NCBI GenBank assembly: GCA_003559575.1 | Contig: PWKZ01000256.1 | Span: 1 to 37,031 of the forward strand | DNA length: 37,031 nucleotides | Reading direction: 5' to 3' | Source of the DNA: Bradymonadales bacterium | GTDB lineage: Bacteria; Myxococcota_A; UBA9042; PWKZ01 | Shown: positions 8,993-30,675 of the stretch, one piece after another | Layout of the letters: each line of letters opens with the position of its first letter | Position numbering within the stretch: position 1 is the stretch's first letter | Position numbers and translations under genes: made by a program | The notes under the pieces: generated by a model | Told to the model about the DNA's origin: nothing | Seen by the model: only the letters and a program-made list of their open reading frames with translations | Databases searched by the model: none

Positions 8993-10024
8993 CTAGAGCT
9001 GCAGGTCGGCCTCGTGGCAGGTCTCGAGGAACGCCGTCAGGAGCGTGATTGCCGCCTCGATGTCATCCACATGGGCCGCCTCGACCACCGAGTGGACGTA
9101 ACGCGTCGGGACCGACAGCGTCACCACGGCCACCCCGTCGCGCGCCATCTGCATGGCCCCGGCGTCCGTGCCGCCCCGCGGGAGAATCTCAATCTGGTAG
9201 GGGACGCCGCGCGCCTCGGCCAGATCGACTAGAAATCGAACCAGTCCGGGGTGCGAGATGGAGGCCGAGTCCATCACCTTGATCGCCACGCCCTCGCCGA
9301 GCGAGGTCACTTGCTCGTGGGGTTGGGCACCGGGCACGTCGCAAGCGATCGTCACGTCGAGCGCGACGGCGATATCGGGGGCGATCGAGAACGCGCTCGT
9401 GCGAGCGCCCCGCAGCCCCACCTCCTCTTGCACCGTCCCCACGAAGTAGACATCCGCCACCTGGCCCTTCATGCGGCCGAGGGCCTCAATCCCGACATAC
9501 ATTCCCACGCGATCATCGAGCGCCTTGCCTGAGACGAGCTTGCCCACCTCGCTGAACTTTTGGCTAAGAGTGATCGGATCGCCCTTCTTGACCCGCTCGA
9601 CGACCTCATCGCCGGGCAGTCCTAGATCGACGAAAAGCTCGTGGATTTTTGGGGGCTGCTTTTTCTCTTCGTCTCTGAGGACGTGGATTGGTTTGCTACC
9701 AACCAGCCCCGGCATGGGGCCGCCGCGGGTGTGAACAGTGACGCGCGAGGCGAGCAGGGTGCGCGGATCGAACCCGCCGAGCGGTTCGATGCGAATGAAC
9801 CCCGTCTTGGGATCCACATGGGAGACCATGAACCCGATCTCATCCATGTGGGCGGCCACGACCACTTTTGGACCACTGCCGCGCCGGCGCGCGATCACGT
9901 TGCCCAGCCGATCGACGACCACGTCGTCCGCGTGGGGCCTGACGGCGTCGAGACAGATCGCGCGGATCTCATGCTCGAAGCCCGGGATTCCGGCCGCGTC
10001 CGACAGCTTACGCAACAACTCCAT
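8993..10024 (-). CDS. M42 family glutamyl aminopeptidase / endoglucanase-type metallopeptidase
   Basis: VVVAAHMDEIGFMVSHVDPKTGFIRIEPLGGFDP, ALDDRVGMYVG, GTVQEEVGLRGA, LPRGGTDAGAMQ. Start MELLRKLSDAAG preceded by AGGAGGAG. Confidence 0.92.
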   Translation of the reverse strand: MELLRKLSDAAGIPGFEHEIRAICLDAVRPHADDVVVDRLGNVIARRRGSGPKVVVAAHMDEIGFMVSHVDPKTGFIRIEPLGGFDPRTLLASRVTVHTRGGPMPGLVGSKPIHVLRDEEKKQPPKIHELFVDLGLPGDEVVERVKKGDPITLSQKFSEVGKLVSGKALDDRVGMYVGIEALGRMKGQVADVYFVGTVQEEVGLRGARTSAFSIAPDIAVALDVTIACDVPGAQPHEQVTSLGEGVAIKVMDSASISHPGLVRFLVDLAEARGVPYQIEILPRGGTDAGAMQMARDGVAVVTLSVPTRYVHSVVEAAHVDDIEAAITLLTAFLETCHEADLQL

Positions 10025-10170
10025 CAATCTCCTCCTGTGTGCCCCCGGGCCAGGCGGGGTTTGGGGGGGGCAAGCGCGCCCCACTCCCGCGTCATTGTGC
10101 CCCAAAACCGCCCCAAGGCCACCCCTTTTATCGAGGAGGTATCCGGCGCTGTGGCAATCTCTCGCCCCCC

Positions 10171-10265
10171 GATGAGGTGCCCGATGAGGTGCCGATGAGG
10201 TGCCACCCACCTCGCAAGGTGCCCCCGATGAGGTGCCCCCGATGAGGTGCCACCCACCTCGCAAG
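10171..10265. repeat. short tandem/interspersed repeat cluster (GATGAGGTGC, five copies)
   Basis: GATGAGGTGC starts at 10171, 10183, 10194, 10227 and 10241. The 25-mer GATGAGGTGCCACCCACCTCGCAAG is identical at 10194-10218 and 10241-10265. Confidence 0.9.
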
Positions 10266-10342
10266 ATGCTGATTCGACACGGGAAATCTGGGCGAGGTCC
10301 GCAAGCCTGAGGCGGCCGGGTGGGGATGCAACCCCAGCGCCG

Positions 10343-11947
10343 CTACAATCGGCGACGGATGAGGGCCTTGAGTTCGCTCAGCTCCGGGCTTCTAAGCGCC
10401 GCGGCGGCCGCCAGAAAGGCAAGGACGCCGGCGCCTCCGACCACCACCAGCTTGAGCGCCAGCACGAGCCGCCCCTGGTCCAGCTCTAGCCCCCATGCCT
10501 CCCGCAGCCCCCACATGATCGCGCCCATTGCCACCGCCGCGAGCCCGACTCGGAGGAGTGAGATGATTAGCGCGCGGCCCGCGATGGCGCCGAGTTTACC
10601 GCGCAACAGCAACAGCAGTACGGCGGCGTTTGTGGTGGCGGCGATGGCGCCGGCGGCCGCTATCCCGCCGTGGGCGCGCTCGGGCGCGAACAGGCCGGGC
10701 AGCATCAAGCAGAGGGTGACATTGACCACCATCGATAGGGCTCCGACCCGCATGGGAGTGCGCTGGTTCTTCATGGCGAAGAATGCCTGCTGGCCGACAC
10801 GCCCGACGGCGACGGGGTAGAGCGCCAGGGCGTGAAACAGCAGCACCAGTGTCGTGAGCCTGGTCGAGTGCGCGCTGAACTCGCCGTGCTCGAACAGCAG
10901 GCGAACGATTGGCGCCCCAAGGACGATGAGCCCCACCGTCGCCGGCAGGGTGACGAGGGTCAACAGGCCGAGCACGAAAACCAGAGTGTCGCGCGCCTCA
11001 TCGCGCTCACCGCGCGCCACATGGCGCGAGAGGGTCGGCAGGATGACCGTCGACAGTGAGACCACGAACACCCCGAGCACCAGCTCTTGCAAGCGCAAGG
11101 AGTACTGGAGCGAGGCCACCGAGCCCTCCTGGAGACGAGAGGCCAGCATTTGGGAGACGAAGACGTTGATCTGATAGATTCCGGCGGCGAAAACGCCGGG
11201 GCCCATGATCTTCAGGACCTCACGAACTCGCGGCGAGCAGACCCGGAGGGTGGGTTTGATCCGGCCCCCTATTCGGATCAGGAAAGGGATCTGAAACCCG
11301 AGCTGGATCGTCCCGCCCAAGATGAACCCCACCGCGAAAGCGTAAGAGGGGTCGGGGAACAGATCCCTCAGCAACACGGCGCAGCCGATGATGGCCAGGT
11401 TGAGCAGCACAGGGGTGAACGCCGACGGACCGAAGTGGCCAAAACTGTTGAGGATCCCTTGTATGATTGCGGCCACAGAGATGAGCGCCAGATAAGGGAA
11501 CATTATCTGGGTCAGGACAATGGTGAGCTCCACCTTGCCCTCGACCTCGGCGAACCCTTCCCCGAAGAAAGTGTTGACGATCCAGGGCGCCAGCAGGACG
11601 CCTCCGAGAGACACCGCGGTCGTCACGAGGGTCAAGAGGCTCAGGAAGCGAGAGGCGAAGAGCCACAGCTCGGCGCGGCCGGAGCGTTCCTTGGTCTCGG
11701 TGAAGACCGGCACGAATGCCGCGGTGGTGGCGCCTTCGGCGAACAGCCGCCGCAGAAGGTTCGGCAACAGCGCCGCCAATCCGAAGGCGTCGGAGCCGGC
11801 GCCGGTGCCGAGCAGATTGCTGCGGACCTGCTCGCGCACCAGCCCGAGGACACGCGAGAGGCTCGTCATCAGCGTCATGACAAAGGCCGAGCGCACGAGA
11901 CCGTCGACTCGCCGCCTCCGCTCCTCCCCGCCGTCTGAGTCCTTCAT
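10343..11947 (-). CDS. murJ: lipid II flippase MurJ (MviN)
   Basis: 534 aa polytopic protein; MTSLSRVLGLVREQVRSNLLGTGAGSDAFGLAALLPNLLRRLFAEGATTAAFVPVF is characteristic of MurJ. Confidence 0.93.
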   Translation of the reverse strand: MKDSDGGEERRRRVDGLVRSAFVMTLMTSLSRVLGLVREQVRSNLLGTGAGSDAFGLAALLPNLLRRLFAEGATTAAFVPVFTETKERSGRAELWLFASRFLSLLTLVTTAVSLGGVLLAPWIVNTFFGEGFAEVEGKVELTIVLTQIMFPYLALISVAAIIQGILNSFGHFGPSAFTPVLLNLAIIGCAVLLRDLFPDPSYAFAVGFILGGTIQLGFQIPFLIRIGGRIKPTLRVCSPRVREVLKIMGPGVFAAGIYQINVFVSQMLASRLQEGSVASLQYSLRLQELVLGVFVVSLSTVILPTLSRHVARGERDEARDTLVFVLGLLTLVTLPATVGLIVLGAPIVRLLFEHGEFSAHSTRLTTLVLLFHALALYPVAVGRVGQQAFFAMKNQRTPMRVGALSMVVNVTLCLMLPGLFAPERAHGGIAAAGAIAATTNAAVLLLLLRGKLGAIAGRALIISLLRVGLAAVAMGAIMWGLREAWGLELDQGRLVLALKLVVVGGAGVLAFLAAAAALRSPELSELKALIRRRL

Positions 11948-20420: not shown

Positions 20421-21617
20421 ATGAAAATTGAGCCCTCGCTTCGGGTGGCATCCCTTGGCGGCTACGCCTTCGCTGAAATCGATCTGAAAGTGGCCGAACT
20501 ACAGTCCTCGGGGACCGCCTGCGCCGACTTCGGCGTCGGCGATCCGCGCGATCCGACCCCCGAGCACATCTGTCGCCGTGCCCGGGAAGCCGTCATGAGT
20601 CATCGGCGGACCGGCTATCCGAGCTACGTCGGCAGCGCGATCTTCCGCGAGGCCGTGGCCGCATGGTTGGAGCGGCGCTTTGGAGTGGCGCTCGATCCCG
20701 AGCGCGAGGTGTCCTCCACGATCGGATCCAAGGAGGCGGTCTTTCATTTTCCGTTGGCCTTGCTCAACCCCGGTGATCTGGTCCTGGCGCCCAGCCCGGG
20801 CTATCCGCCGTACGCGCGCGGGACGATGTTCGCCGGCGGCGAGACCTACTTCTACCCTCTCGCCCCCGAAAACGGATTTCTCCCCGACCTCCAGGCCATT
20901 CCACGTGAGATAGTCTCCCGCGCCAAGATCCTCTGGTTGTGCCACCCAAACGCGCCCACCGGGACTGTGCTCCCACCCGAGTTTTTGGCCGAGGTGGTGG
21001 AGTTTGCCCGCCGGAACGAGATTGTCCTGGCCTCCGACGAGGCGTATAGCGAGATCTGGTTTGGGGACGAGCCGCCGCAGTCGGCGCTTCAGTTCGGCTC
21101 CGAGGGGATTATTGCCTTCCATAGCTTGTCCAAGCGCAGCGCCATGACCGGCTGGCGGGTGGGGTTCGTGGCGGGCGATGAGCGCCTCGTCGCGCTGTTC
21201 AAGAAGGTCAAGACCAACATCGACTCGGGCACGCCCAACTTCATTCAGGAGGCCGCCGTCGCGGCGCTGTCGGACGAGACCCACGTGGCCGCGATGCGGG
21301 CGAGCTATCGCCGCAAGGGCGATCTGTTGCTCGCCGCGCTGGCCCAAGCAGGCCTGGTTACCACAAAGCCCGAGGCGACCCTCTACCTCTGGCAGCGCGC
21401 GCCGGAGGGGATGAGTGGGCTCGATCTGGCCACCCGCCTCCTCGCTCCCGAGGTGGCCGTGGTGACGATCCCGGGAGCATCGATTTCGACGCCGACGGAC
21501 GGCGGGGGCAACCCCGGCGAGCGATATGTGCGGTTTGCGCTCGTCCCCGAGGAAGAAGCGATCCGCGCCGCCGCGGCGCGGATCGCCAAACTCGATCTGA
21601 GAGCGCCGGCCTGTTGA
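20421..21617 (+). CDS. PLP-dependent class I/II aminotransferase (DapC / LL-DAP aminotransferase-like)
   Basis: LWLCHPNAPTGTVLPPEFLAEVVEFARRNEIVLASDEAYSEIWF...FHSLSKRSAMTGWRVGFVAGD (PLP lysine motif SLSKR). Confidence 0.88.
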   Translation: MKIEPSLRVASLGGYAFAEIDLKVAELQSSGTACADFGVGDPRDPTPEHICRRAREAVMSHRRTGYPSYVGSAIFREAVAAWLERRFGVALDPEREVSSTIGSKEAVFHFPLALLNPGDLVLAPSPGYPPYARGTMFAGGETYFYPLAPENGFLPDLQAIPREIVSRAKILWLCHPNAPTGTVLPPEFLAEVVEFARRNEIVLASDEAYSEIWFGDEPPQSALQFGSEGIIAFHSLSKRSAMTGWRVGFVAGDERLVALFKKVKTNIDSGTPNFIQEAAVAALSDETHVAAMRASYRRKGDLLLAALAQAGLVTTKPEATLYLWQRAPEGMSGLDLATRLLAPEVAVVTIPGASISTPTDGGGNPGERYVRFALVPEEEAIRAAAARIAKLDLRAPAC

Positions 21618-21632
21618 AGGAGTAGTCAATCG

Positions 21633-23642
21633 ATGGTGACCACCCCCCAGTCTCTTACCGGAAACGGTCTCGCGGTCTCACGCCGGACCATCTCTTTGTT
21701 GCTCTTGATTGCGCCGTTCGTGTTCGGCTGCGAGCTTGGCCCGCCACCCGATCATGCTCTGGTTCAGGTGCTGACCGGCTCGCCCTACGAGCGGGGCTTT
21801 CAGCACGGCGAGGCGATGGCCGACCGCATTCGCTCGCTTCAGACCACGTTGCTGACCAGCTCGCTGTTACCCTACCTGAACCGCGAGCGCGCCGCTGTGG
21901 CGTCGGTGATGTTGGCTTATCGGGACAAGGACGACGACGAGTTCGAGTCCTACTATCAGAGATACCGGCGCGAATGCCTTCAGGAGTTTCCCGATGATTG
22001 CCGTATCAAGTGCGGTTTCGCATATCTGGTGATGCGCGACAGCGCCCGCTCGCTCACCCCCTATCTCCCACAGCGCTACCTGGATGAGATGCAGGGGATT
22101 GCCGACGGTGCGGGCTTGCCCTTCGAACAGATCCTGGTGCTCAACACCTTCTTCGATACTCTGCTGTCGTTTCGCGCCATCACCGCTTTCATCCGCGGGG
22201 TGCAGGCTCCTCGTGTGGAGCGGGTGCGGTTTTTGGACCTCGAGGAGCGGGGGGACTACGACGGGGCCGATCTCCCGGATGAAGACTGGGACAAGATCAG
22301 CGGCCCGCATGAGCCTAGCCCGCACGCCGTCGCCGTCGAGGTGTCGCCTCGGAGCGCGGTCGAGTTCCTGATCCACGACACCAAGCTCGAGGTAGGCACC
22401 GACCTGGGGGAGCCGCCGGGGGTTGATCCGAGCACGGTCCGCGTGCGGGTCGACGATGTTCAGTACACCTACCCCGAGGACGACGGCATCTTGCAGGTCT
22501 TCGAGGTCCCGGACGACGAGGAGCGGGTCAGGGTGGTGTTGATTCCACCGGGCGGCTTTGCCGAAGCTGCCCAGGTGTCGCTGGTGGTCCAGGCCGGAGA
22601 CTTCAACGCCATCATCGATCCGCCGCCCGAGCGGGCGCGGTTCATGCGCGACGAGCGCATTACGTTCACCACCGCGGGGTTTGGTCGCGAGAAGCACGAG
22701 GTGGCCAACCGCGATCCGACTCCAGACGGATCCATTCCGCCGTCGATTTCGTTTGCCGCGCGCGGCACCGCCACCGCCGATGGTGCGCCGCTGCTGGCGC
22801 ACCACTATGCGCTACTAGATGCCAACACGGTTCACAAACACGCGGTGCTCTCCGTCCACCACCCGGACGAGGGGGCGGCCCACGCGGTGCTCGGTTACGC
22901 GGGCTTCATCTGGGGCTTTTCCGGCATGAACGAGCATGGCCTGACCTTCGCGTTCAACAACAGCGACACACTCAACAACCCCATGACCGGGGCGTTTTTG
23001 GAAGAGCTGTTCCAAGCCGAGTTCAGCTTGCGCGGGGTCCCTATCGGGATAGTCGGCCGCGAGCTACTGGCGAGCGAGGAGACGGTCGGCGGCGCCGTGG
23101 ACTTGCTCGCGGCCGTCTCCCACACCGGCGGCTGGAATGTGCTGTTGGCCGACGCCGAGGGAGATCTTGCGGCGGTTGAGCTCGACAGCAATATCGACTT
23201 CGAGGGCGCTCCCGCTGACCGAACCGGAGCGCATGTCATCAGGCCCGATGATCGCGACGAGCACGGGGAGCCGCTGGCCGGCATCAGCGGCGACGAGCTG
23301 TATCTCGGGAGCCACTATCGCAAGAACCTCGAGGATATTCGCACCACGGCGCTGGTCTTCGATGTCCAGCCGCAGCGCTACTGGACCACCTTTTACTATC
23401 GCTCGGTGCAGGCCACCGCGGTCCTTCGCGAGCGCTTGCGCCAGGCGCTCGGCGCGCTTGATCCGGAACGCGCCAAAGCCATTCTCCGCTTTCCCGAGCT
23501 GGTCGACCAACGCGACTCGATGAACGCCGCCATCTACCAACCGCGAAGCGGGACTTTCCTGTGGGCCGCCGGTGAGATCCCGGCCACCGATGGAGTGTTC
23601 CGGGAGTTCGCGTTCGAGCCTGCCGGGGGAGATGTCAAATGA
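21633..23642 (+). CDS. C45-type (acyl-CoA:6-APA acyltransferase-like) Ntn-hydrolase family lipoprotein
   Basis: Lipobox LIAPFVFGC; SPYERGFQHGEAMADRI; SISFAARGTATADGAPLLAHHYAL; GYAGFIWGFSGMNEHGLTFAFNNSD. Pattern typical of C45/AAT-like proteins. Confidence 0.72.
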   Translation: MVTTPQSLTGNGLAVSRRTISLLLLIAPFVFGCELGPPPDHALVQVLTGSPYERGFQHGEAMADRIRSLQTTLLTSSLLPYLNRERAAVASVMLAYRDKDDDEFESYYQRYRRECLQEFPDDCRIKCGFAYLVMRDSARSLTPYLPQRYLDEMQGIADGAGLPFEQILVLNTFFDTLLSFRAITAFIRGVQAPRVERVRFLDLEERGDYDGADLPDEDWDKISGPHEPSPHAVAVEVSPRSAVEFLIHDTKLEVGTDLGEPPGVDPSTVRVRVDDVQYTYPEDDGILQVFEVPDDEERVRVVLIPPGGFAEAAQVSLVVQAGDFNAIIDPPPERARFMRDERITFTTAGFGREKHEVANRDPTPDGSIPPSISFAARGTATADGAPLLAHHYALLDANTVHKHAVLSVHHPDEGAAHAVLGYAGFIWGFSGMNEHGLTFAFNNSDTLNNPMTGAFLEELFQAEFSLRGVPIGIVGRELLASEETVGGAVDLLAAVSHTGGWNVLLADAEGDLAAVELDSNIDFEGAPADRTGAHVIRPDDRDEHGEPLAGISGDELYLGSHYRKNLEDIRTTALVFDVQPQRYWTTFYYRSVQATAVLRERLRQALGALDPERAKAILRFPELVDQRDSMNAAIYQPRSGTFLWAAGEIPATDGVFREFAFEPAGGDVK

Positions 23643-24862
23643 GAGTAGCGCGACTCTTTTGCGGGATTATGTTGTCGCTGGTGTTGTGTCTGCCGGCCAC
23701 GGCGCGGGCGGCGTTTACCGAGACTCTCCCGCGCGGCACTTTTTTGCTGGATCTGGCCTACAACCACTCGTATCTCTCGAACAACTGGGACGATAGAGGC
23801 AATCTCGCCCCCCTGATCGAGTCCATCGATCGCTATGAGCCCGGCGGCGGCAAGCAGGGGCGCCTCATCCCCAACGCCGACGTGGAGTACTCGGTACTCC
23901 TGATTCAGCTCCAGTACGGCATCCTCGATTCGCTGAGCTTGGCCGTGGGGGTGCCGGTGGTGCTGAACACGACGGTCAACCCGTCGTTTGCCTGGGAGCC
24001 GGGCGACTATCAACCGATCCTGGGGCGCCCGTACAGCGGCACCGATTTCTGGGAGTGGGCCGGGAGCATGGGGCAGCCGCAGCCGTCGCGCTGGGACGGC
24101 AACCGCGGTGTGTTGTCCGATATCGTCCTCGGTTTCCGATTTCGTTTCACCGACTGGATTGAAGCGTTCGAGCGCGTCGATTTGGCGATGGCGGTGAGCG
24201 TCATGGGAGCGATCCCCATCGGCCAGCAAGGCGACCCCGACGAGCCGGTGGCGGTGGGCACGACTCTGTGGGACTTGCAGACCCAGGGGGATCTGGCGTT
24301 CCATTTGAGCATCGACAAGATGTTCACTCGCGAGCTTGATGGGCGGTTGGTGCTCGGGTTGGATGTCTACTACGAGGTGTTCTTCCCGCGGACACAGAGA
24401 ACGCCCACCGGTCGCACGCACCCGCTGCTGATGGATCAGGCGCCTTACGTCGGACGCACCCATACGCTGAACCCCGGCGACTACTTCGGGTTCGCGGTGG
24501 CCGCCGACGTGGTGGCGGTGCGCGGTCCGACCCGCGCCACCTGGCTTACGGGGGGTAGTTTGCAGCGCGCCATGACCCTGCCGCCGCTCCTGACCATCTC
24601 GCTTGGCTATCGCTTCAACGCCAACAACCAATCTCGTTTCAGCTCGCGCTCCGATCTGTGGGACCACGACCAGGAGCGCCAGTGGCAAGCCGGTTATCGC
24701 AACACCCTGAGCGCCACCGCGTTGTTCAGTTTCCTGCGACTCGGGGCGCCCCTCCAGCTCTATGTGGGTTATCGGACGATGGAGTTGATTCCGGGCAAGA
24801 ACGTGCGCGCCGGGCAGGTGATAGTCGCCGGCCTGAGGGCCCCATTTGCCTTCTCTTTATAG
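23639..24862 (+). CDS. predicted outer-membrane beta-barrel protein of unknown function
   Basis: Signal peptide MRVARLFCGIMLSLVLCLPATARA; alternating amphipathic strands; C-terminus GLRAPFAFSL. Start overlaps the upstream stop (ATGA). Confidence 0.65.
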   Translation: MRVARLFCGIMLSLVLCLPATARAAFTETLPRGTFLLDLAYNHSYLSNNWDDRGNLAPLIESIDRYEPGGGKQGRLIPNADVEYSVLLIQLQYGILDSLSLAVGVPVVLNTTVNPSFAWEPGDYQPILGRPYSGTDFWEWAGSMGQPQPSRWDGNRGVLSDIVLGFRFRFTDWIEAFERVDLAMAVSVMGAIPIGQQGDPDEPVAVGTTLWDLQTQGDLAFHLSIDKMFTRELDGRLVLGLDVYYEVFFPRTQRTPTGRTHPLLMDQAPYVGRTHTLNPGDYFGFAVAADVVAVRGPTRATWLTGGSLQRAMTLPPLLTISLGYRFNANNQSRFSSRSDLWDHDQERQWQAGYRNTLSATALFSFLRLGAPLQLYVGYRTMELIPGKNVRAGQVIVAGLRAPFAFSL

Positions 24863-24884
24863 GTTCGCGCGAGGGAGTTGGACT

Positions 24885-27401
24885 TTGAATCGACACAATA
24901 TTGCCCCTTGGGCGGTGCTCATTGCCTTCGGTGTGCTTTGTGGCGGATGCGCCGCCAGTTCCTTTTTGGGCTATCGAATCAACCCCGACTATCCCCGGAG
25001 CAAGAGCGCCGATGTCGCGCTTGAGGGGCTCGAGCATCCGGTCGAGGTATACCTCGACGACTACGGGATCCCGCACATTGAGGCGTCGAGCGAGCGCGAC
25101 CTCATGCGCGTGGTGGGCTACATGCAAGCTCGCAACCGCTTCTTCGCCATGGACGCCATGCGCCGCCTGGCTACCGGGCGGCTCTCCGAGCTGGTGGGGG
25201 AGCGACCGCTCTACGACAGCACCACCGTCGAGTTCGATCAGGCAATGCGCGGTTGGGGGTTCGAGGGGCTGGCCGAGCAGGACGCAGAACGCCTCGATCC
25301 CGAGGTTCTGGAGCTATTTGAAGCGTTTGTCGAGGGTATCAACGCGGCGCTCGATAATCACGTGCCTTTGGAGTATCGGTTGCTGCGAGTCTCTCCCGAG
25401 CCGTGGCGGCTGGCCGACACCTTTGCGCTTGGCCGTCTCAACGCCTGGACGGTGACTCACAACTGGCAGCACGAGCTGGCTCGTTTGCTGCTGGCGCTGC
25501 ATGGGGGGCTCGCGCGCGCGCAGCGGGTCCACCCCCAGGAGCCATGGGAGGGGCTCACGAGCCTGCCGGCCGAGGGGCCGGCGCGACCGCTCGAACAGGC
25601 GGTCGCGCCTGAACTCGAGAGCTTGTTCCCCTTGGCTGCCAATGAGGGACTGGCGACCGAGGCGCGCACATCCCCCGGTCGGGCGCGGGCGGCGGTCGCG
25701 CTCACCGCCGGCGGAGCCAGCAACGCGTGGGTCGTCAGTGGGGAGCGCTCCGCGAGTGGCCGGCCGCTATTGGCCAACGACCCGCATTTGCTCCACATGC
25801 TGCCGTCGCTGCTGTACCAGCAGTCGATGCGCGCGCCGGGGATCGAGGTCATCGGCGCCGGGATGGCGGGGCTGCCCTACGTCCTTGCCGGCCACAACGG
25901 GAAGGTGGCTTGGGGGATGACCTCGGCGGTGGCCGACGCCCAGGATCTCGTCGTCGAGCGACCGGAGGGGGAGCGCCGGGTGCGCACCCCGGAGGGCAGC
26001 GCGCAGATCGAGCACGACGAGCACATCATCAGGGTGCGCGACGGTGGGAAGTTTCGCGAGGTGGCGGCGACATTTCGTCGCACGCCCCACGGGCCGCTGT
26101 TGAATGACATCTACCCCGAGCTGCTCCCTCAGGGGTCTCCTCTCGTGGCCGTCAGGAGCGCCGCGGCCTGCGGGGCGCGAAGTATCTTGGCGCTGCGTGA
26201 GGCGGCCCGGGCCAAAGACGTCTTCGAGCTGAGAGCGGCGCTTCTCGGAATGGAGTCGCCGCCGCAAGTGTGGCAAGCGATCGATCTCGAGGGGAACATC
26301 GCGCTGTTCTTGACCGGCGCGCTGCCGCGACGGCGCGGCTACCGCGGCACATTCCCGGTGCCGGGCTGGTCCGCCGACTACGGCTGGGACGGGCTCGTCG
26401 CACCCGAGGATTTGCCGTTCGTGGTCTCGCAAACGGGTTTTTTGGCACACGCCAACAACTTAATCGTCGACCCGGGCCACGGCGAGGTCTTTATTGGCGT
26501 CGACAGCGCGCCCTCCTACCGCCAGGAGCGGATCATGGCGTTACTCGAGTCCCGCGAGCGCCACTCGGCCGACGAGATGCGGGAGATGCAGCTCGACTTG
26601 AAGGTCGAGCGCGCTCGCCGGCTGGCCCCCTTGATGGTCGCGAGCCTGAGCGATCCCGAAGGTGGCCGGGAGCTCACGGCGCACGAACAGCGCGCCGTGG
26701 CGCTGCTTGACGAGTGGGACTACGAGGCCACGGTGGACTCGGCGGCGGCGGCGATCTTCTTTAAACTCTATCGTCGGGCGATCCTCCTGGCGCTCGAAGG
26801 CGAGCTTGAAGGTCCGGCGTTGAGTTTTCTGCTGGGCCAACGCTACTTCACCAACGCGGCCGATCTGTGGTTCGACGAAGAAGATCACCCGGTCTGGGAC
26901 GATCCACGCACTCCCGCGCGCGAGACACGCGGCACCGTCTTGCGGGTGGCGTTGGCCGAGGCACTCGCGGGACTCACTGATTTGCAGGGAGAGCGGCCCG
27001 AGGACTTCCGCTGGGGGGCGCTGCACGACCTCCAGTTGCGCCATCTGTTTGGGGGCCAGAGGGCGATTGCGGGTTATGTGAACTTGCCGCCGATGGAGGT
27101 GGGCGGTGGGATCGACTCCATCTGGAAGACCCATTTCGATCTCGGCAACCCCGCGCACCCATTTCGGGCCGTGGCCGGGCCGGTGATGCGCATGGTGGTG
27201 GACGCGGCCGATTTCGACGCCGGCGGCTATGTGCTCGAGACCGGCAGCTCGGGCTGGCCCGGGAGCCCGCACTATGGCGATCAGCACGAGCTTTGGAAGG
27301 AGGGGCGGCTAGTCCCCATGTCTCTCGACGCCGCGGCCGTCCGTGAGTCGGCGAAGGCGAGACTCGAGTTCGTGCCACGCACTTCAGGAGCTCAACGATG
27401 A
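24885..27401 (+). CDS. penicillin acylase (S45) family Ntn-hydrolase, lipoprotein
   Basis: GGASNAWVVSGERSASGRPLLANDPHLLHMLPSLLYQQS (nucleophile Ser, codon 25719-25721), GHNGKVAWGMTSAVADAQDLVVER, ANN motif. Lipobox GVLCGGC. TTG start at 24885 preceded by GAGGGAG. Confidence 0.87.
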   Translation: MNRHNIAPWAVLIAFGVLCGGCAASSFLGYRINPDYPRSKSADVALEGLEHPVEVYLDDYGIPHIEASSERDLMRVVGYMQARNRFFAMDAMRRLATGRLSELVGERPLYDSTTVEFDQAMRGWGFEGLAEQDAERLDPEVLELFEAFVEGINAALDNHVPLEYRLLRVSPEPWRLADTFALGRLNAWTVTHNWQHELARLLLALHGGLARAQRVHPQEPWEGLTSLPAEGPARPLEQAVAPELESLFPLAANEGLATEARTSPGRARAAVALTAGGASNAWVVSGERSASGRPLLANDPHLLHMLPSLLYQQSMRAPGIEVIGAGMAGLPYVLAGHNGKVAWGMTSAVADAQDLVVERPEGERRVRTPEGSAQIEHDEHIIRVRDGGKFREVAATFRRTPHGPLLNDIYPELLPQGSPLVAVRSAAACGARSILALREAARAKDVFELRAALLGMESPPQVWQAIDLEGNIALFLTGALPRRRGYRGTFPVPGWSADYGWDGLVAPEDLPFVVSQTGFLAHANNLIVDPGHGEVFIGVDSAPSYRQERIMALLESRERHSADEMREMQLDLKVERARRLAPLMVASLSDPEGGRELTAHEQRAVALLDEWDYEATVDSAAAAIFFKLYRRAILLALEGELEGPALSFLLGQRYFTNAADLWFDEEDHPVWDDPRTPARETRGTVLRVALAEALAGLTDLQGERPEDFRWGALHDLQLRHLFGGQRAIAGYVNLPPMEVGGGIDSIWKTHFDLGNPAHPFRAVAGPVMRMVVDAADFDAGGYVLETGSSGWPGSPHYGDQHELWKEGRLVPMSLDAAAVRESAKARLEFVPRTSGAQR

Positions 27402-27997
27402 GGCTTGTACGGTTTATGACGGCGGCGCTCGTGACCCTCGCCGGTTTGACGATTGGGTGCGCGGACGAGTCCGAGTGGCCGGCGCCGTGCCCCGGGACTC
27501 TTGAGAGCACCGGGGGCGCCCCGAACATCCTCGAGCCGGCGCTGCCGGATGTCACCGCGCCGGGCGGTGGGATCGAGATGGGGCAACCGGGGGCGCCGTG
27601 CGCGGTCAACGCGGACTGCGCGACGAACTTTTGCATGACCACAGAGACAATCGGCACGCTTATCCCGGGCACGTCGGTTCAAGGAGGCTACTGCTCGGAG
27701 TTGATGTGTCCCGTCGACGGTGAGTCGGGGCTGTGCGGGAGCGCTGAGATTGGCGGGATCTGCTTCTCGCTGGTCCCGTTCGTACCGGATTGGGCTGAAA
27801 ACGGGATCTGTCTTGCGCCCTGCGAGGAGGATCACGACTGCCGGCCGGAGGACGACATCATCTGTTTCGACGCCCAGAGCCTGGTGGTCGAGGGGTTGCT
27901 GGAGCAGGAAGTGTTGGACAGGTACTACCCGACGGCCAGCGCCGGGTGCTTGTCGCGAAGTCTCGTCGCCGCGGCGATCGAGAGCCTCCAAGAGTAG
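27398..27997 (+). CDS. small cysteine-rich lipoprotein
   Basis: Lipobox LAGLTIGC; C-rich repeats CAVNADCATNFC, CPVDGESGLC, CLAPCEEDHDC. Start overlaps the S45 stop by 4 nt. Confidence 0.72.
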   Translation: MRLVRFMTAALVTLAGLTIGCADESEWPAPCPGTLESTGGAPNILEPALPDVTAPGGGIEMGQPGAPCAVNADCATNFCMTTETIGTLIPGTSVQGGYCSELMCPVDGESGLCGSAEIGGICFSLVPFVPDWAENGICLAPCEEDHDCRPEDDIICFDAQSLVVEGLLEQEVLDRYYPTASAGCLSRSLVAAAIESLQE

Positions 27998-28036: not shown

Positions 28037-28561
28037 TCAATCGGCGCCGAAGCTCTCTGGATTCTGGCCGGCGAACACTCCCTCGTAGCGCCCCTCTCCC
28101 TCGGCGCGGGCGAAGATGAACTGACAGATGGCCGTGCCCGGCACTATCCTGAGCGGGATAGGGCCGAAATTGCTCATCTCCAACACCTGGTGGTTGGCGA
28201 TGCCCGGTTGCATGAAACTGGCCGAGATATGCACCAGAAGCCCCACTCGTGCGAATCGGCTGCGCCCTTCGAGCCAGCCGCACAGATCGGGGGCGAGCGA
28301 GAGTTTCTCCTCGGTGATGCCGAGCAGGGTCTGGCCCGGCTGCATCACCAGGGTCTCGTGCTCCTTGAGCATCAAGCCCCTGGTGGCGGAGCGAAAGTCC
28401 ATCCGCTCGGTGATCGAGAGCTCGGTGGGGAGGTGGACGAAGACGCGAAATGCGCGGCTCAGGTGAAGATCCACCGAGGCCGGCCCGAGATTTGCCTCGG
28501 AGAACGGCTCGATCTTGATCCTTCCGCGGCGCATCTCTTTTAAAATCTCGCTTTTGCTAAT
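28037..28561 (-). CDS. dcd: dCTP deaminase / dUTPase-family protein (Dcd)
   Basis: PASVDLHLSRAFRVF, LLGITEEKLSLAPDLCGWLEGRSRFARVGLLVHISASFMQPG, QVLEMSNFGPIPLRIVPGTAICQFIF. N-terminus extended to an ATT codon because ISKSEILKEMRRGRIKIEPF matches the expected Dcd N-terminus; the first conventional start is ATG at 28534. Confidence 0.87.
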   Translation of the reverse strand: MSKSEILKEMRRGRIKIEPFSEANLGPASVDLHLSRAFRVFVHLPTELSITERMDFRSATRGLMLKEHETLVMQPGQTLLGITEEKLSLAPDLCGWLEGRSRFARVGLLVHISASFMQPGIANHQVLEMSNFGPIPLRIVPGTAICQFIFARAEGEGRYEGVFAGQNPESFGAD

Positions 28562-29511: not shown

Positions 29512-30675
29512 ATGAGTCTCAGTCTGCTCGCCCGTCAGCTCAGTGAATCGGCGACACTCAAGCTCAACGCAACGGCCGCTCAGCTTCGGGGGGAAGGCGC
29601 TCCCGTTATCCACCTTGGAGGCGGCGAACCGGAGAGCAAGGTGCCCCCCGGAGCGATCAAAGCCGCCACGGAGTTGGTGCAAAGCGGGGAGGTGCGCTAC
29701 ACGCCGGCCTCCGGGACGCGCGAGATCAAGGACGCCATCGTCCACTACACCGGGCGCTATTACGACTACGAGGTGGGGCGCGAGAACGTCATGGCGGCCG
29801 CCGGGGCCAAGCAGGCGCTCATGAACTGCTTGCTGGCGATTCTCGACCCCGGGGACGAGGTGATAGTCCCTCGCCCTTATTGGGTGAGCTATCCCGATAT
29901 GGTCGCGCTGGCGCGCGGGGTGACCAGGTTTGTTCTGCCCGATCCACGGACACTGGAGCCGCGCATCGGAGATATCGAAGCGCTCGTGACTGACCGAACC
30001 AAAGCCATTATCTTCAACAGCCCCAACAACCCTTCGGGGGGGGTCTACTCGGCGGAGCTGGTGCGGGCGGTGGTGGAGTTGTGCGAGGAGCGCGGCATCT
30101 ATCTGTTGCTCGACGACATTTACCACCGGTTGCTGTTCGACGGCCGGCTCCCCGTCTCCTGCTACCGCTACGCGCGCAAGCACGGCGATGAATCGCGGAT
30201 TGTGGTCATCAACGGTGTCTCGAAGAGTTACGCGATGACCGGGTTCAGGTTGGGCTGGGCGGTGGCCGCCAAACACCTCACAAAGATAATGAGTAACGTG
30301 CAGGGGCACATGACCTCGGGGCCTTCAACGGTCTCCCAGGCGGCGGCGGCCGCCGCCATTAGAGGCGACCAGGGCTCGGTCGATGAGCTGGCGCGGGGGC
30401 TCGAGGGTCGCCGCGACAGGTTGCTTCACGAGCTCGGCTCACTCCCTGGGCTCGAGGTCAACAAACCCGGGGGAGCCTTCTACTGCTTCGCCGATCTGCG
30501 GGCGTTCGACTCCGACTCGCGGCGGTTGGCGGCGTTCTTGTTAGACAAGGCGCTCGTGGTGACGGTGCCGGGCTTCGAGTTCGGCATGGAGGGTCACTTG
30601 CGACTCTCGTTTTGCGGCAAACTCGAAGATATAGTCGAGGGAGCGCAACGAATTAGGCGGGCCCTCACTCCTTGA
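29512..30675 (+). CDS. aspartate aminotransferase-like class I/II aminotransferase
   Basis: LGGGEPESKVP, RYTPASGTREIKDAI, IIFNSPNNPSGGVYSAE, INGVSKSYAMTGFRLGW. Confidence 0.92.
   Translation: MSLSLLARQLSESATLKLNATAAQLRGEGAPVIHLGGGEPESKVPPGAIKAATELVQSGEVRYTPASGTREIKDAIVHYTGRYYDYEVGRENVMAAAGAKQALMNCLLAILDPGDEVIVPRPYWVSYPDMVALARGVTRFVLPDPRTLEPRIGDIEALVTDRTKAIIFNSPNNPSGGVYSAELVRAVVELCEERGIYLLLDDIYHRLLFDGRLPVSCYRYARKHGDESRIVVINGVSKSYAMTGFRLGWAVAAKHLTKIMSNVQGHMTSGPSTVSQAAAAAAIRGDQGSVDELARGLEGRRDRLLHELGSLPGLEVNKPGGAFYCFADLRAFDSDSRRLAAFLLDKALVVTVPGFEFGMEGHLRLSFCGKLEDIVEGAQRIRRALTP

Follow-up and report, generated by a model that had tools for sequence, protein, structure and literature searches.

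Layout of the locus and the obligate gene pair

The window analysed here is the whole of a 37,031-nucleotide stretch, contig PWKZ01000256.1 of a Bradymonadales bacterium (assembly GCA_003559575.1, a draft of 306 contigs). Its relatives place the genome in the Myxococcota. Our subject is a cluster of five genes at positions 20421-27997 that includes a lipoprotein related to the C45 family of N-terminal nucleophile (Ntn) hydrolases, a predicted outer-membrane barrel and an S45 acylase. The sequence-only reading of this DNA had described five closely spaced plus-strand genes, and the open reading frames (ORFs) and their coordinates agreed with it. All five are consecutive and on the plus strand, with junctions formed by a 15 bp gap, an ATGA overlap, a 22 bp gap and a second ATGA overlap.

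20421..21617, + strand: gene 1, class I/II aminotransferase, LL-diaminopimelate (LL-DAP)-aminotransferase-like by family searches
21633..23642, + strand: gene 2, C45/AAT-fold lipoprotein of 669 aa without the nucleophile, 15 bp after gene 1; opens the obligate pair
23639..24862, + strand: gene 3, predicted outer-membrane beta-barrel, ATGA overlap with gene 2; second of the obligate pair
24885..27401, + strand: gene 4, S45 penicillin-acylase-family lipoprotein, best start TTG after a 22 bp gap; S45 clade only
27398..27997, + strand: gene 5, small Cys-rich lipoprotein, ATGA overlap with gene 4

The longest ORF of gene 4 begins at 24846 and the best start is the TTG at 24885. A look for sigma-70-type promoters within the cluster gave none, and terminator-like matches numbered 8 against 5.2 expected by chance, which is uninformative. 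On spacing, a single transcription unit for the five genes is plausible.

The distribution of genes 2 and 3 set them apart from the rest of the cluster. The barrel gene was present in 31 of 90 relatives and in 31 of 379 genomes phylum-wide, nearly all from one class. When the C45-like profile was searched alone it hit one place in each of 30 of the 90 genomes, and all 30 carried the barrel while no genome without the barrel was hit; in a further genome (G047) a contig end truncates the barrel gene. The C45-like gene was directly upstream of the barrel gene on the same strand in 29/29 readable loci, with a 4-bp overlap in 16 of them, and the pairing held across barrel identities down to 38%. 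Given this invariant co-occurrence and adjacency, genes 2 and 3 are, by comparison of genomes, an obligate unit. The search for spread of the pair was thorough only inside one phylum. A scan of 84,980 species genomes for exact peptide patterns, a weak test of spread, returned one relative, a Myxococcales metagenome-assembled genome, and a plasmid collection searched with both core proteins gave zero matches. A description of the two-gene module was not found in the literature searched.

The C45-like lipoprotein and the barrel candidate

Gene 2 was recognised by two C45 models, PF03417 (AAT) at 43.9 bits and NF040521 (C45_proenzyme) at 123 bits for the whole protein, above the cut-off of 85. 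PF03417 also matched 27 of the 28 barrel-linked C45-like members. A profile built from the C45-like proteins and compared with the PDB found AAT 2x1c (E 0.003) and, at a weaker level, acid ceramidase, in both cases through the alpha part. Like C45/AAT enzymes such as isopenicillin-N acyltransferase, the family keeps the alpha motifs G.Y.RG.QHG and E..GIADG...LN and the beta-part motif FA..G.AT.DG. It differs from them by the loss of a Cys and an Asp, an insertion, a lipoprotein anchor and an obligate barrel neighbour. The 28 barrel-linked proteins (the window copy and 27 relatives) were aligned with 8 ordinary C45 proteins that these genomes also encode, and the following features were located in the window copy.

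21729..21731, + strand: lipobox Cys33 (FVFG/C), from sequence and alignment; kept in full-length orthologues
22164..22748, + strand: insertion of about 195 residues (~178-372) at the alpha/beta junction, from the profile break and alignment
22743..22745, + strand: Ser371 where a C45 enzyme has its catalytic Cys, from alignment with ordinary C45 proteins
22803..22835, + strand: H391...A393...D396...H401, where the catalytic Asp is replaced and a new near-invariant H-x4-D-x4-H motif stands, from alignment

At the nucleophile position, 371, the C45-like proteins had Ser in 20 members, Pro in 5, Ala in 2 and Thr in 1. Cys was found in none of the 28, compared to 8/8 ordinary C45 proteins. The partner Asp of the [RQ][NTS]xD motif, position 393, was likewise present in 8/8 ordinary proteins and in 0/28 C45-like proteins (A, S, T or I instead). 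As both residues are gone in all 28 members, gene 2 does not encode a C45 Ntn-hydrolase of the standard kind, and the earlier assignment of a C45-type enzyme is not confirmed on this point. In acid ceramidase, which is structurally related, the substitutions C143A and D162N block or strongly reduce autocleavage and hydrolysis (PMC5915598). Judging by spacing within the RxxD motif, Cys143 and Asp162 would correspond to the residues lost here. By the standard mechanism the gene 2 product would thus be a pseudoenzyme and not an ordinary C45 enzyme, and most likely a non-catalytic, ligand-binding lipoprotein that works with the barrel.

The alignment also bears on whether the C45-like protein might still be an enzyme by some new mechanism, in which Ser371 serves as the nucleophile of some members or H391, D396 and H401 form a new metal or acid-base site. 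P369 and D396 were invariant in the 28 proteins and H391 and H401 were each kept in 27, so that the conserved residues crowd the former active site. However, 8/28 members have Pro, Ala or Thr at position 371, H391 is missing from one member and H401 from one, none retains the catalytic Asp, and in most members Pro-Pro precedes the would-be cleavage site. We consider catalysis of this kind quite unlikely.

The insertion sits directly ahead of the usual nucleophile place. The NF040521 match ends at model position 84 and picks up again at 92, a segment of ~7 residues in ordinary C45 proteins. Part of the insertion is beta-rich and immunoglobulin (Ig)-like, a resemblance that comes from a weak protocadherin match, and orthologues carry DNDGDG-type loops in it. 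The Ig-like part was the sole middling-confidence region of the gene 2 AlphaFold model, which was poor overall. The predicted lipobox of gene 2 held up, with its Cys conserved in full-length orthologues. Long C45-like variants of 742-767 aa with an extra Cys-rich insertion, and with no S45 gene nearby, were seen at L027:10720-13020, L028:10478-12703 and L032:4965-7247.

The sequence-only reading had predicted that gene 3 encodes an outer-membrane barrel, and the support found for this is indirect. No Pfam or NCBIfam model fitted the window copy, and Phenol_MetA_deg, a putative outer-membrane family, matched weakly in 1 of 24 relatives. The family has a signal peptide and ends in [FV]W in 29/31 members, compared to 1/562 other genes of the same loci. 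A terminal aromatic residue is seen in many proteins inserted by the beta-barrel assembly machinery. The window copy ends in FSL instead of [FV]W. A scan for amphipathic strands did not rise above shuffled sequences and did not discriminate. The alignment of this family shows one conserved segment.

23993..24103, + strand: conserved barrel segment, residues 119-155, W-x2-GD...GR.Y..DFW.WA.SMGQ.P....N, from alignment

This 37-residue segment holds 12 of the 51 invariant residues of gene 3, suggesting a binding or partner site. Gene 3 is predicted to encode an outer-membrane beta-barrel of an uncharacterised family.

Genes of the S45 clade and the flanking aminotransferases

The S45 gene adjoined the pair in 9 of the 29 loci, all from one clade. 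In a tree of both core proteins the S45 loci formed one supported clade, requiring 2 changes compared to a mean of 6.8 after shuffling. Three further genes were found near the pair: the Cys-rich gene (7 loci), a gene for a pyridoxal phosphate (PLP)-dependent enzyme resembling sphingosine-1-phosphate (S1P) lyase (7 loci) and a DUF819 gene (5 loci). In genomes of family f4 the pair is present, an S45 of this type is absent and no genes of the S45 clade lie nearby. In several f4 genomes large Cys-rich repeat proteins (DDGNPCT.D.C) lie near the pair (L046:11059-14115, L042:5287-7155 and L038:10583-13033); they may be surface proteins common in those genomes.

The description of gene 4 as penicillin-acylase-like was confirmed. 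It matched PF01804 at 612.9 bits over residues 65-833, over the cut-off along the whole protein, and the Ser nucleophile, the DPH His (position 23 type) and the ANN Asn were invariant in 9 orthologues. The nucleophile was placed where S45 beta chains in the PDB begin to align.

25719..25721, + strand: predicted N-terminal Ser nucleophile of the S45 beta chain (GGA/SNAW)

Gene 4 shares Ser1, the His23-type DPH, the Asn and the alpha-spacer-beta layout with the S45 family (penicillin G acylase, GL-7-ACA acylase, D-succinylase, PvdQ). It differs as a lipoprotein and is not itself novel. Its best PDB match was D-succinylase (E 7e-59), and it scored 54.1 bits against the NCBIfam PvdQ equivalog with its cut-off of 950. 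Gene 4 looks like a genuine, active S45 acylase. With gene 4 so far under the PvdQ cut-off and D-succinylase as its best solved relative, neither N-acyl-homoserine lactone nor penicillin activity could be claimed. The lipobox proposed for gene 4 was atypical in the window copy (LCGGC), with the Cys kept in most orthologues. S45 paralogues of 35-44% identity occur elsewhere beside unrelated genes. Gene 5 had no family match. The S45 clade has it at 7 loci, and at one of these, in genome G014, the Cys-rich gene directly follows the barrel with no S45.

The sequence-only reading had proposed two active Ntn-hydrolases of different types acting jointly on acyl-amides. Hidden Markov models do recognise both families and the genes lie in one likely transcription unit. 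Against this, the nucleophile and partner Asp are missing throughout the C45-like family and S45 is not beside the pair in 20/29 loci, which makes joint action by two hydrolases very improbable. Co-occurrence of C45-like and S45 genes, for which that reading had suggested a neighbourhood search, was found in the nine loci of the one clade, and it does not define the system, as f4 genomes carry the pair without such an S45.

The best PDB relatives of the linked PLP enzyme were S1P lyases (E 2e-92, compared to 1e-32 for MfnA). With StSPL (3mad) it shares the PLP Lys context SADVHKYG and overall sequence, and it differs in its replaced NPLH motif and falls in a separate subfamily. The NPLH motif belongs to the phosphate pocket of S1P lyases and has a role in phosphate binding. 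All 7 linked copies lacked it and had N[AG]L[NS]P or SAIDP instead. In the source genome an S1P-lyase-like PLP gene overlaps a DUF819 gene by 4 bp (L089:7913-10515, contig C69), and this is the same couple that lies beside the C45-like and barrel genes in several relatives. A second S1P-lyase homologue in the source genome (L090:9069-10580, contig C71) has the full NPLH motif, which suggests a separate, true sphingosine-1-phosphate lyase locus.

These similarities raise the idea of a sphingolipid-degradation locus with a C45-like ceramidase, an S45 deacylase, a barrel importer and an S1P lyase. It draws on the closeness of the PLP enzyme to S1P lyases and on the contact of the C45-like profile with acid ceramidase. 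NPLH is however replaced in every linked PLP enzyme, the copy that retains it sits apart on contig C71, and the C45-like protein lacks the Cys that a ceramidase would have. We regard such a locus as very improbable.

DUF819 belongs to the CPA/AT-type transporters, grouped with glutamate and carboxylate carriers (PMC8396727). When the DUF819 literature was searched for a substrate, only the CPA/AT transporter class was found. Homologues of DUF819 were present in 8/9 S45-adjacent genomes compared to 1/17 others tested, a hypergeometric chance of ~5e-5 that overstates the evidence as the genomes are related.

Gene 1 had been called a DapC-like aminotransferase. It matched Aminotran_1_2 and LL-DAP-aminotransferase-like models, supporting the broad family, and fell under every equivalog cut-off shown. 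Its orthologues, 54-61% identical, lie on unrelated contigs of relatives, and some of those genomes have no barrel, so its placement here is local; on this comparison gene 1 is an ordinary gene outside the conserved module, probably co-transcribed with the cluster here only. No aminotransferase was found near the C45-like/barrel pair in the loci of other genomes, and the aminotransferase was rejected as a member of the system on the whereabouts of its orthologues. A second class I/II aminotransferase, aspartate-aminotransferase-like, lies at 29512-30675, so that the cluster is flanked by two different aminotransferases. A dCTP deaminase-like gene lies at 28037-28534, convergent with the cluster's end. 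At 8993-11947 there are genes for an M42 aminopeptidase and the lipid II flippase MurJ, and the surroundings resemble ordinary chromosome.

Proposed working of the cluster and its meaning

We tentatively favour, as possible though short of probable, a reading in which the cluster extends, in one clade, an obligate outer-membrane module of two genes; the lipoprotein would bind or gate, and the S45 clade would add deacylation and import. The pair and the residue losses are seen in the sequences, and the location, direction, ligand and pathway given below are our inference. The C45-like lipoprotein would serve the barrel by binding or gating, without catalysis, its old amide-substrate pocket holding a ligand that it passes to the pore or takes over from it. 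The S45 clade, to which the source genome belongs, would have gained an S45 acylase whose catalytic residues are intact, and this lipoprotein would cleave an acyl-amide outside the cell or in the periplasm. The pair would carry the substrate or the product across the outer membrane, DUF819 in the inner membrane would import the amino or carboxylic product, and the PLP-dependent decarboxylase/lyase-like enzyme would consume it. Pseudomonas SphA and FadL-type uptake of hydrophobic compounds, where an outer-membrane channel stands beside amide-lipid enzymes, is a lead by logic only, as no sequence relation was seen. The sequence-only reading is supported in so far as the genes form an envelope cluster, with lipoproteins, a predicted outer-membrane protein and an S45 acylase whose catalytic residues are kept. 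A surface system acting on acylated compounds, as that reading had proposed, would be a reasonable inference for the S45-bearing clade only, and its basis in two Ntn-hydrolases was unsupported.

Several observations weigh against the binding-and-import proposal. The AlphaFold models of genes 2 and 3, built from two-sequence alignments, had pLDDT (predicted local distance difference test) values of 33 and 31, so neither core protein is supported by structure. Ser stands at the nucleophile place in most C45-like members, window copy included, making a Ser-nucleophile enzyme conceivable for the window copy. In the source genome the PLP and DUF819 genes are on another contig than the pair, genomes that lack the pair can still have the PLP enzyme, and the co-occurrence counts are phylogenetically non-independent.

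The same distribution would fit a core pair with a structural, export or signalling role, for example in placing or secreting surface lipoproteins or in envelope integrity, with the S45, Cys-rich, DUF819 and PLP genes belonging to a different pathway that, in one clade, is encoded in the same transcription unit. The f4 genomes that hold the pair with no S45-clade genes nearby, the Cys-rich gene that follows the barrel without S45 in G014, and the S45 paralogues beside unrelated genes all agree with it. Against it, the S45 gene comes immediately after the barrel gene in 9 loci, at short gaps or overlaps, and among the genomes the occurrence of DUF819 goes with that of S45. We consider such a role of the pair beside a separate pathway rather unlikely.

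A more far-reaching form of the binding-and-import proposal, which we hold to be unlikely, is that the domain inserted at the junction and the loss of the nucleophile turned a self-cleaving amide-hydrolase fold into a surface receptor or gate dedicated to a new family of outer-membrane barrel, with the near-invariant H-x4-D-x4-H motif as a new pocket. One clade would then have added the active S45 acylase, the carrier and the PLP enzyme to give a complete uptake pathway for N-acylated compounds.

The label 'C45 autoproteolytic acyltransferase/hydrolase' that profiles assign would mislead for every member examined, and the annotation is corrected here. The strictly conserved module would be a rarity, since its Ntn-hydrolase fold has been kept without the nucleophile as the partner of an outer-membrane protein, and it offers a concrete test case for enzymes turning into binding or gating subunits.

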